Source of the DNA: a virus
DNA length: 64,000 nt
Virus record (IMG/VR): IMGVR_UViG_3300032282_001282
Span: 22,284 to 86,283 of that record
Strand: one strand, 5' to 3'
Shown: one piece after another, positions 43,131 to 54,508 of the stretch
How positions within the stretch are numbered: position 1 is the stretch's first letter
How the letters are laid out: each line of letters opens with the position of its first letter
Translations under genes and position numbers: made by a program
Notes under the pieces: model-generated
What the model was told of the DNA's origin: nothing
What the model saw: the letters and a program-made list of their open reading frames with translations, nothing else
The model's database searches: none

Positions 43131-43362
43131 ATAATGATAGGTTTATTCTGTTACGAGGAAAACCTATCAAAACCCTAAGTGGCTGTTAGGCCGCTAATGC
43201 GAACTGTTCGTCGTTTGCGTTTACGTTTTTTGCTTCTGCGACCGAGCTACGTCTTTCTATGCTATGGGCATAGCGACTACAGTTACCTCAATCCTAACGG
43301 GTTTCACATTCCCGTGTTGTCTGCTTGTCTACTTATCACCCTGTCGAAACCATAGCAGGCCC
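43131..43362 (-). ncRNA. ssrA: tmRNA, coding piece (permuted, split ssrA)
   Basis: The 5' end GGGCCTG (43362-43356) pairs in all seven positions (one G-U) with CAGGTCC of the acceptor piece at 43749-43755, forming the tmRNA acceptor stem. CTATGGTTTCGACAGGG corresponds to the conserved 5' tRNA-like region (TGGATTCGACGGG in E. coli). The tag reading frame is at 43218-43186: GCA AAC GAC GAA CAG TTC GCA TTA GCG GCC TAA, i.e. ANDEQFALAA, preceded by AAAAAACGTAAAC. Downstream, GATAGGTTT/AAACCTATC (43168-43136) forms a 9-bp hairpin near the likely 3' end, which is approximate. Function: rescues stalled ribosomes and tags peptides for ClpXP. Confidence 0.92.
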
Positions 43363-43363
43363 A

Positions 43364-43732
43364 TCATAAAGAAACTTGTTTGAGATACTGCTCACCTTCG
43401 CCGGTTACATACCAATACTCATCATCGTTGACTATGTATCCAGCATCAGCCAAACTGTCCATAGCATTGTCAAATGCTTGGGTGCGTGACTCATCTTCTA
43501 CATAGTCTAATCCTGACATGATGGCAGTATAGATTCCTTTTAGTATTAGAATTTTACCTAATCCCTTGCCTTGAAAGGTTGGCTCTAATTCTACTAAACT
43601 TCTTCCACTAACTGCATCATATTGAAATGTTCCTGCATATTGCCCATCTACACTTATTTCAACGCCAATAGTATTACTACCTTTTGTTGTTTTGAAACTT
43701 AGTTTCGGATTAGCAATTTCAGTGATACGCAT
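43364..43732 (-). CDS. GNAT-like acetyltransferase encoded inside the tmRNA intervening segment
   Basis: 122 aa from ATG 43732, with AAGGAAG four to five nt upstream overlapping the acceptor piece's 3' trailer; TTG 43735 is possible. ELEPTFQGKGLGKILILKGIY resembles GNAT motif A (Q-x-x-G-x-G-K). The TGA stop (43366-43364) ends one base before the mature 5' end of the tmRNA coding piece. It lies exactly where permuted tmRNA genes have their short removed spacer. Confidence 0.7.
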   Translation of the reverse strand: MRITEIANPKLSFKTTKGSNTIGVEISVDGQYAGTFQYDAVSGRSLVELEPTFQGKGLGKILILKGIYTAIMSGLDYVEDESRTQAFDNAMDSLADAGYIVNDDEYWYVTGEGEQYLKQVSL

Positions 43733-43744
43733 CAAACTTCCTTA

Positions 43745-43809
43745 TGGTGGACCTGGCGGGAGTCGAACCCGCGTCCAGAATGCCTTTCGGCTCACTTCAT
43801 ACAACAATA
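43745..43809 (-). ncRNA. ssrA: tmRNA, acceptor piece (permuted, split ssrA)
   Basis: Minus strand: a GCCGAAAGGC hairpin, then TTCTGGAC, the T arm GCGGG-TTCGACT-CCCGC (5-bp stem, 7-nt loop), CAGGTCC, A and encoded CCA (43747-43745). No anticodon or D arm follows, so it is not an ordinary tRNA. It precedes the coding piece in transcription order, the reverse of a one-piece tmRNA. The 5' boundary is estimated from the promoter. Confidence 0.92.
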
Positions 43810-51826: not shown

Positions 51827-51916
51827 TTACTTGTCAAACCAGTCTTTGGCTTCTATCATCAGATAGACTACCACGGAACCTATAACGAGAATACTTAACC
51901 ATCCGAAGAAAGACAT
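51827..51916 (-). CDS. Tiny single-pass membrane protein
   Basis: 29 aa (MSFFGWLSILVIGSVVVYLM...), start overlapping the upstream stop as TAATG. One membrane helix with a charged C-terminus (EAKDWFDK). Function unknown. Confidence 0.5.
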   Translation of the reverse strand: MSFFGWLSILVIGSVVVYLMIEAKDWFDK

Positions 51917-52107
51917 TAATTATAACCTTTTACTACATTGTTATCTATTTTTGGATTACCGCGACCGGCGGCACGTTGATGTGCTTGTCGCTTTTCTTGA
52001 TCTTGTATCTCTCTATTACGTTCTGGTGGTAATGGACCACAGCCTAGTCTATCCCACTCTTGTTCGGAGTAGTAATATCCTTCTACGGGCTTCTTCTTGT
52101 GTTCCAT
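51916..52107 (-). CDS. Small hydrophilic protein
   Basis: 63 aa from ATG 52107 (MEHKKKPVEGYYYSEQEWDR); the in-frame upstream ATG at 52158 would run into the structured RNA. Gln/Arg-rich end (REIQDQEKRQAHQRAAGRG). Unknown. Confidence 0.5.
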   Translation of the reverse strand: MEHKKKPVEGYYYSEQEWDRLGCGPLPPERNREIQDQEKRQAHQRAAGRGNPKIDNNVVKGYN

Positions 52108-52126
52108 AGTAATAGTATTTAGTATG

Positions 52127-52637
52127 CTCTGCGAACCCCGGTGGTAATTATACCGCATCAGAAATTTGGTCAGGTTACCCCAATTAGTCTTTCATCACAC
52201 ACGGCTTCCACCCACTTCCCGACGGGTTCCGTTCTCGCATTGCCAGCGGCCTTTCGGTTTAAAGACTACCACCCACGGGGCACGACCACCGTTTCTCCTT
52301 CATGCGGGTCACACTAGCCCAGCGTTACCCGGGCGGGTCCTTTACAACGTATTCGTCGTGGGTGGTTTTGGGAAGTGACACCACGATTCACTTGCGGGTT
52401 TTGTAGAGAGTTTTTCAAGTGAGCGTTACCGCCTCTACAGGAACGCACTTGTCCCTTCTCACTTAATATTTACAGCAATATTGGAAAATGTTTGAGTGCC
52501 AATTTATGCGTCGGGTGCTTCCCGGCAACAGCGTATGGCTAGTTATATCAGGACCTGTTCCACGCCAGTTAGGCCCGTATAGTCAGTACGTCTACTAACG
52601 ATACCTATGTTTCCATCTCAAACACTTACCAATATTG
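52127..52637 (-). ncRNA. Large structured non-coding RNA, family not identified
   Basis: About 510 nt with no coding sense and higher GC than its surroundings. Reading the minus strand: a 21-nt long-range helix 52637-52617 with 52496-52476 (19 Watson-Crick pairs, one G-U, one mismatch); an H-type pseudoknot made of TGTAGAG/CTCTACA (52439-52433 with 52408-52402) interleaved with TCACTTG/CAAGTGA (52422-52416 with 52394-52388); a 9-bp helix CCACCCACG/CGTGGGTGG (52365-52357 with 52277-52269); and an 8-bp helix TAGTCTTT/AAAGACTA (52268-52261 with 52192-52185). Strand is inferred from neighbours. Not RNase P, tmRNA or rRNA by motif. Ends are approximate. Confidence 0.7.
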
Positions 52638-52658
52638 CCGGGGGTTTTACCCCCCAGC
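52637..52658 (-). other. Stable GC hairpin between gene and structured RNA
   Basis: Minus strand GCTGGGGG / CCCCCGGC, 8-bp stem with a short A-rich loop, 8 nt after the stop of the gene at 52666. No U-run follows, so it is more likely the 5' boundary of the RNA or a stabilising structure than a terminator. Confidence 0.6.
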
Positions 52659-52665
52659 AACATTA

Positions 52666-53004
52666 TTACTCAGCAACTTCTTCTTTAGAAGACTTAGTAG
52701 CACGAGCTTTAATAGCCTCAAGCGAAGGCTTAACCTTAGCACCTTTAGCTTTAACAACTCCCACGCCGTTGTACTTGGCGTCAGCCGCATCAATTGCGGC
52801 ACGGAAATTGGCATTAGCATACAAGTCAGTGGACTTCAAGAAAGTCACCAACTCAGGCTTAGTCATTGCACTAGGCAATTCCACAAGATTGATATCGCTA
52901 TCAGTCTTAGCCAAGATTTTGACACGAGTCATGTCAGATGCAAAACGCACCTTGTATTGACCTTTAGTCTTAGAAACACCACCAACTTTAAATTGCTTAT
53001 CCAT
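52666..53004 (-). CDS. Conserved phage protein of unknown function
   Basis: 112 aa, Lys/Ala-rich. FKVGGVSKTKGQYKVRFASD, AMTKPELVTFLKSTDLYANA and AAIDAADAKYNG are a block common in T4-like aquatic phages. Function unknown; own strong promoter. Confidence 0.65.
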   Translation of the reverse strand: MDKQFKVGGVSKTKGQYKVRFASDMTRVKILAKTDSDINLVELPSAMTKPELVTFLKSTDLYANANFRAAIDAADAKYNGVGVVKAKGAKVKPSLEAIKARATKSSKEEVAE

Positions 53005-53066: not shown

Positions 53067-53095
53067 ATTATAGATTAATTCAAATTAACGGTCAA
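53067..53095 (-). promoter_or_regulatory. Sigma70-like promoter
   Basis: Minus strand TTGACC (53095-53090), 17-nt spacer, TATAAT (53072-53067). Probably also transcribes the structured RNA. Confidence 0.82.
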
Positions 53096-54193: not shown

Positions 54194-54508
54194 TTAATGT
54201 GTATTAAGGGCTGGTTGATACTGACGAATCAGCTCACGCTCGCGGGCATGGGCCGGCTTGCGTCCACGTACAATTTCGAGCAAGCCATAAACATGGTTTT
54301 CGGGACCATATTCACGAATACTGTGGCATAAATCCCACACTTTGTTTTCAGTTAATGCACGGCGAACGTGCTTCTGAATACGCACTTTTAGGGCTTTACG
54401 AATTTGGTTGCCGCAAACGGTAATACCAATGTATTGCTCGCCGGTTACTGTATTTGTAATACAGTAGACAGCGTGTTTTGTATCTTGTCTGCGTTTTCTT
54501 TTTACCAT
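54194..54508 (-). CDS. GIY-YIG nuclease-domain protein
   Basis: 104 aa. AVYCITNTVTGEQYIGIT is the GIY-YIG motif with the usual spacing, and ARERELIRQYQPALN near the end holds the catalytic Glu and the PxLN motif. The domain stands alone, as in some phage homing or repair nucleases. The ATG is only about 7 nt from a TATAAT box. Confidence 0.82.
   Translation of the reverse strand: MVKRKRRQDTKHAVYCITNTVTGEQYIGITVCGNQIRKALKVRIQKHVRRALTENKVWDLCHSIREYGPENHVYGLLEIVRGRKPAHARERELIRQYQPALNTH

Follow-up and report, generated by a model that had tools for sequence, protein, structure and literature searches.

What is encoded in the approximately 550 noncoding bases between the stop codon of a 112-amino-acid (aa) gene and the ATG at 52107 of a 63-aa gene, in a stretch of virus DNA where the surrounding genes are on the minus strand? 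The window, meaning the whole 64,000-nucleotide stretch analyzed here, is part of the 86,283-base virus record IMGVR_UViG_3300032282_001282, and coordinates are those of the window. A sequence-only reading had nominated positions 52127-52637 as a single structured RNA of about 510 nt, outside any recognized family and possibly akin to the large phage RNAs GOLLD and ROOL. We find instead three tandem noncoding RNAs on the minus strand, named A, E, and B.

The noncoding segment

A protein-coding reading of 52127-52637 was dropped, as the longest minus-strand open reading frame (ORF) there has 44 aa; an 80-aa ORF that reaches into the segment represents the downstream gene read from a start farther upstream. 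GC content is 0.46 in A, 0.47 in E, and 0.56 in B versus about 0.40 per kb of the surroundings, so the initial description of the segment as noncoding and GC-richer holds. Folding of 52118-52660, a stretch that takes in a neighboring hairpin besides A, E, and B, gives a z-score of −3.42 on the minus strand, with 0/100 dinucleotide shuffles as good, and −2.63 on the plus strand, with 1/100 as good. Of the structure cells, 8.0% in A, 9.4% in E, and 14.0% in B are G-U pairs, which would be A-C if the opposite strand were read. Because of the better z-score and these G-U cells, the RNA strand is the minus strand.

Borders of the three RNAs were set by covariance models R1 (A), R3 (E), and R2 (B), and the scores given below are for window copies that are themselves among the sequences used to build the models (24 behind R1, 8 behind R3, 31 behind R2). 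The features of the region, from upstream to downstream, are as follows.

53067..53095, minus strand: sigma-70-like promoter before the 112-aa gene, a consensus match only, with 11/12 consensus bases
52666..53004, minus strand: upstream gene, 112 aa, 3′ of which modules come and go in relatives
52637..52658, minus strand: short G/C hairpin after the 112-aa gene stop codon, read by eye, with no U run following
52471..52641, minus strand: RNA A, about 165 nt (R1 193.4 bits, E = 1.1 × 10−45; covariation)
52344..52469, minus strand: RNA E, about 125 nt (R3 130.7 bits, E = 1.2 × 10−28; covariation)
52123..52341, minus strand: RNA B, about 210 nt (R2 206.4 bits, E = 1.2 × 10−69; covariation)
52116..52123, minus strand: ACTAAATA, after B and ahead of the start codon that follows
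51916..52107, minus strand: small 63-aa gene further downstream, with its ATG at 52107
43186..43806, minus strand: permuted tmRNA of the same phage (Rfam RF04321, 101.2 bits)

Folds and covariation

RNA A consists of a closing helix, a hairpin, a GGGCC/GGUCC helix, a pseudoknot GCGU/ACGC, and stacked hairpins on the 3′ side. The closing helix pairs 52617-52638 with 52475-52496; it is the 21-nt long-range helix already noticed from the sequence, and in relatives 18 of 20 pairs change on both sides. The A pseudoknot is paired in 24/24 sequences, with the variants GCGU/ACGC, GCCA/UGGC, GCCG/CGGC, and GCGA/UCGC. RNA B has ten helices, with nested GGAACC/GGGUUC and GNGG/CCN′C stems and a loop pseudoknot ACC/GGU. 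H-type pseudoknots are indeed present: RNA E has two, P1/P3 and P5/P6, and A and B have a single pseudoknot contact each.

The alignments contain 24 distinct sequences and 50 pairs for A, 31 sequences and 43 pairs for B, and 8 sequences and 28 pairs for E, with pseudoknots included in the pair counts. Standard pairs fill 95.7% (A), 98.4% (B), and 98.7% (E) of cells, and changes on both sides are seen in 35/50, 26/43, and 11/28 pairs, respectively. The B alignment (A1) omits L002 and L129, which are cut off, L171, which is too short, and identical copies; the A alignment (A2) omits identical copies and has the ends of L173, L180, and L193 trimmed. Eight near-duplicate loci were taken out by hand in one comparison. 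The covariation scores, obtained on the same alignments on which the structures were picked, are 0.508 for A against a shuffled mean of 0.170 and a slid maximum of 0.104, 0.470 for B against 0.178 and 0.072, and 0.341 for E against 0.153 and 0.121, with 0/500 shuffles as high in each case. The count of further pair types in E is reached by 66/500 shuffles and so is not clearly above them. Since shuffles ignore relatedness, double changes were also counted by parsimony on FastTree trees, giving 118 standard-to-standard double changes in A (35 pairs), 97 in B (25 pairs), and 17 in E (11 pairs); slid partners give no more than 15, 8, and 2. Homologues of all three RNAs thus carry compensatory changes, and the long-range helices read from the window are real.

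Copies outside model building score 0.586 versus 0.180 for A (16 distinct) and 0.577 versus 0.209 for B (26 distinct), in alignments fitted to the models and for copies that were fetched by patterns from A and B and may resemble the training copies. The B set (A5, 35 rows) includes as one row a weak second R2 match in L213 (E = 2 × 10−5), which is not counted as support. Among the later A copies, one helix (columns 96-99/137-141) is paired in just 69.8% of cells, and pair 30/56 is formed in 4/16.

Occurrence in relatives

Loci were fetched via the 112-aa gene (52) and a nearby radical-SAM gene (74, with one common to both), and pattern scans of IMG/VR supplied further copies of A, B, and E. 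All relatives are IMG/VR contigs, some of them long (L010 with 356,865 bases, L011 with 354,429 bases); our guess is that the source phages are freshwater ones. Blastn with the segment finds relatives in 14/52 loci of the 112-aa gene, and the matches form two blocks, which are in reverse order in L012-L016, with several relatives having one block only. E is a third unit, between the blocks, and is alone in L196-L202.

With the window included, A is in 50 searched records (27/88 plus 23/39 sources), B is in 69 (35/88 plus 34/39 sources), and E is in 10/59 sources. The A and B models have no match in 27 further sources, namely 20 radical-SAM-gene loci and seven E contigs. Not counted as support are 15/40 stretches from the A pattern scan that lack A by R1 and so were chance hits, a weak R2 match in L145 (E = 0.03), and an antisense R1 match in L152 (E = 8 × 10−4). 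Each of A, E, and B is found in further IMG/VR contigs without the other two. Of 31 records besides the window that have both A and B, B comes first in 18 and A in 13, with gaps of about 0 to 1397 nt; these are counts of records, not of independent events, and several IMG/VR contigs are nearly identical. Taking one record per near-identity cluster leaves B first in 13 and A first in 11. Hence the modules separate and swap between relatives, and we reject the reading as a single RNA of about 510 nt, whose proposed coordinates span three separable RNAs.

Two further modules were seen in the same surroundings. Candidate family C, known from nhmmer only (L012:4371-4600, L015:2472-2694, L020:4391-4639, L153:8520-8649), has conserved motifs GGTTACCTA..CCGTTAGGG and GGCGGCGGA..GGCAGTAATGA; it occupies the place of A, E, and B in relatives of the window and in L153 is part of a tRNA array. 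Module D, of about 75-90 nt with CCCGAACCGA..GGTAGCAAGGCGAAAGC, separates the 112-aa gene from B or E (L009:4360-4434, L016:4374-4463). At L018:2984-3080, a short near-perfect hairpin AATAAGTGTT..AGCACTTATT stands alone at the place of RNA A, like an empty site.

Setting among tRNA genes

Three or more tRNA genes, and up to 29, are present in the fetched stretch of 36/49 A loci and 59/68 B loci. Among these, A shares its strand with the nearest tRNA in 36/36 and B in 59/59, a count that is weaker than it appears because array genes mostly share a strand. A tRNA lies within 10 nt of A in 25/36 and of B in 43/59, compared with 3.0% (A) and 4.4% (B) for stretches drawn at random from the tRNA-free parts of these arrays. 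When each near-identity cluster contributes a single record, the figures become 18/27 and 29/43. A tRNA ends at most 15 nt before B in 40/59 loci, with 9 isotypes represented, and a tRNA starts at most 15 nt after A in 24/36 loci, with 8 isotypes. L208 and L216 both run tRNA-Glu, tRNA-Tyr, B, A, tRNA-Asp, and in L198 the gap between tRNA-Asp and tRNA-Met is filled by E alone.

Within arrays, A leans to the front, with a median share of 0.25 of the tRNAs upstream, and B is spread along them, with upstream-share quartiles of 0.24, 0.44, and 0.75, where the loci are cut stretches. In the cut stretch of L175, 23/29 tRNAs are upstream of B, a count from a hand-chosen subset of 25/36 A and 42/59 B loci; the isotype and position statistics use all loci. 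A tRNA array is dispensable for A and B, since no tRNA is found in the window's own 86-kb record, which may be a fragment, or in the fetched stretch of 10/49 A loci and 6/68 B loci.

Other structured RNAs share these places. Of 21 fetched loci scanned with Rfam, 6 contain GOLLD together with A or B (L134, L160, L167, L174, L175, L191), and within each of those six GOLLD spans a tRNA is called by Rfam or ARAGORN. A Group I intron (RF00028, 59.2 bits) lies at L173:11324-11520 in a tRNA array with A and B.

Neighboring genes and elements

The 112-aa gene matches nothing in Pfam or PHROG at E = 0.01. At the place of the hairpin that follows it in the window, several relatives have a hairpin of different sequence. 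Four sigma-70-like sites are found in the stretch where 2.2 are expected, and the one before the 112-aa gene could also serve A-E-B. The string ACTAAATA after B resembles a T4-type late promoter, and similar strings lie 3′ of A or B in L004, L006, and L009. A gene resembling GIY-YIG homing endonucleases is near the RNA cluster at 54194-54508 on the minus strand.

The permuted (two-piece) tmRNA sits 8 kb from A, E, and B in the window. It follows A by 93 nt in L004 and by 237 nt in L005. L017 and L022 have none of A, E, and B, and there the tmRNA follows the 112-aa gene by about 300-360 nt. The window's tmRNA has a long intervening segment with a 123-aa open frame on the same strand (43364-43735, TTG start), possibly a protein gene nested inside the tmRNA gene.

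Comparison with known families

The sequence-only reading had seen no RNase P, tmRNA, or intron core in the segment and had left its kinship with GOLLD and ROOL to be checked. Rfam 15 at gathering level has no match in the A/E/B region of the window, and at E up to 10 the region matches only FinP, far below threshold and over the neighboring hairpin. In this region GOLLD (RF02032) stays unmatched even when E is relaxed to 10, ROOL matches neither at the gathering threshold nor in the relaxed search, and the models for Group I and group II introns, RNase P RNA, tmRNA, HEARO, and OLE give no match either. On these searches, A, E, and B belong to no Rfam family. The A and B copies of L193 and L156 match no intron, ribozyme, or other Rfam family, and no tRNA model matches A, B, or E in the window or these copies of A and B. 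Blastn against 50,697 phage records finds no homologue of the window region or of B, A, or E, and 72,556 plasmids have no match to the window region. Exact patterns, one each taken from A and B, give 0 matches in a genome-contig collection, a test that is weak because of the exact matching. A literature search, which covered mostly papers outside subscription and sources wholly other than bioRxiv preprints, found nothing describing A, B, or E; PMC2864571 and PMC9004378 describe other phage RNAs.

The nearest kinds are T4 RNA C and RNA D and GOLLD/ROOL. T4 RNA C and RNA D (species 1 and 2), annotated as 139 nt and 119 nt, are small stable RNAs directly beside phage tRNA genes, as A, B, and E would be in tRNA arrays, and a 2022 paper terms them "RNAs of yet unknown functions" (PMC9697503). 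The T4 rnaC/rnaD stretch (L195:1409-1672) matches no Rfam family at E up to 1. R2, R3, and R1 with default filters have no match in the T4 tRNA region, and unfiltered R1 on T4 gives noise, with its best 13.5 bits elsewhere and at most 3.4 bits (E = 2.9 or worse) over rnaC/rnaD; membership of A, B, or E in the T4 RNAs was rejected on these scores.

GOLLD, according to PMC12286853, is a phage and prophage RNA near tRNA islands whose function is unexplained, which binds ribosomes in pull-downs, and many members of which exceed 800 nt. It resembles A and B in lying near phage tRNA genes and sharing their loci; it differs from A, B, and E in the size of those members and in its lack of a model match to the window region. 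ROOL, according to the same source, occurs in phages, commonly close to tRNA islands, and contains several pseudoknots (PMC12286853); in these respects it is like A, B, and E. Of the suggested kinship with these two families, then, the tRNA-island setting stands for relatives of A, B, and E, but not for the window's record, and the sequence models give no match. ROOL is far larger than A, B, or E. The permuted tmRNA, although a structured RNA gene of the same phages, has a known function, and no model position of A, E, or B overlaps it. Because there is no match in Rfam 15, the phage records, or the literature searched, we rate A, B, and E as new families of a known and functionally unexplained kind, that of T4 RNA C/D, GOLLD, and ROOL.

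Discussion

We consider it probable that A, E, and B are independent noncoding RNA genes that are made together with tRNAs where arrays exist, are stable, and act in trans. They look like RNA genes cotranscribed with tRNAs because they are packed between tRNAs on the same strand, with varying partners and with no reading frame. In many other uncultured phages they are members of tRNA arrays and would be transcribed with the tRNAs, and the same steps that process tRNAs would cut them free, with cleavage at a tRNA 3′ end making the 5′ end of B, and RNase P cleavage at the next tRNA making the 3′ end of A. Such release is suggested by how sharply B is bounded behind a tRNA end and A ahead of a tRNA start. 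The freed stable RNAs would then act in trans during infection, as we infer from the changing neighbors of the modules. In the window, A-E-B may be driven by the sigma-70-like promoter, and since tRNAs are absent there, the cutting would fall to other nucleases. From the company kept, which is tRNA, tmRNA, and the ribosome-binding GOLLD, we guess, a little short of an even bet, that the target may be the translation machinery or tRNA metabolism.

It is unlikely that A, B, and E are instead cis-acting elements of the arrays, such as antiterminators, leader or riboswitch domains, or processing spacers. Long untranslated operons need antitermination in other systems, as with put RNA and rRNA antitermination, and the modules are inside such operons, with A toward the array front as an early cis element would be. 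However, they have no fixed downstream partner, since eight tRNA isotypes follow A, or small ORFs in relatives of the window, and no one class of downstream gene is there for a cis-regulatory riboswitch to control, which tells against that candidate. The spread of B over whole arrays also speaks against cis action, as does the late-promoter-like string that in the window separates B from the next gene.

Quite unlikely, too, is a role as decoys or inhibitors of host defenses that cut tRNA or sense phage RNA; the setting among phage tRNAs, the compact folds, and a set of modules that varies from phage to phage would suit it, yet tRNA models match none of the three. Improbable in our judgment is the explanation that they are ribozymes or mobile RNA elements, intron-like or self-cleaving, that have spread into tRNA arrays. 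Gain, loss, and reshuffling of modules between relatives, the lone hairpin of L018, and the complex pseudoknotted folds are what such elements might leave, but no intron or ribozyme model matches, and the modules adjoin tRNAs that ARAGORN reads as whole rather than lying inside them. That the three form one large ornate RNA acting as a unit in the manner of GOLLD or ROOL, and perhaps making a cage, is highly improbable: contiguity in the window and a minus-strand fold of the entire segment that is better than shuffles favor it, but each module is found without the others, A and B come in either order at widely varying gaps, E stands alone between tRNAs, and neither GOLLD nor ROOL has a model match in the region.

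Why phages carry stable RNAs other than tRNAs within their tRNA gene clusters has long been asked, and T4 RNA C and D were still without an assigned function in a 2022 paper (PMC9697503). With their structures secured, their borders clear, and natural variants in the dozens, the three families make that question testable. Beyond the independent trans-acting genes that we favor, we tentatively entertain a broader possibility, that tRNA islands of large uncultured phages may carry a repertoire of complex RNAs, interchangeable, evolving independently, and mostly uncatalogued. It would comprise A, B, and E, probably also C and D and further ones, alongside GOLLD and tmRNA, and could be a tool kit for seizing or shielding host translation, or could include new ribozymes. 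The search suggests that the tRNA arrays of uncultured phages hold many RNAs absent from Rfam.
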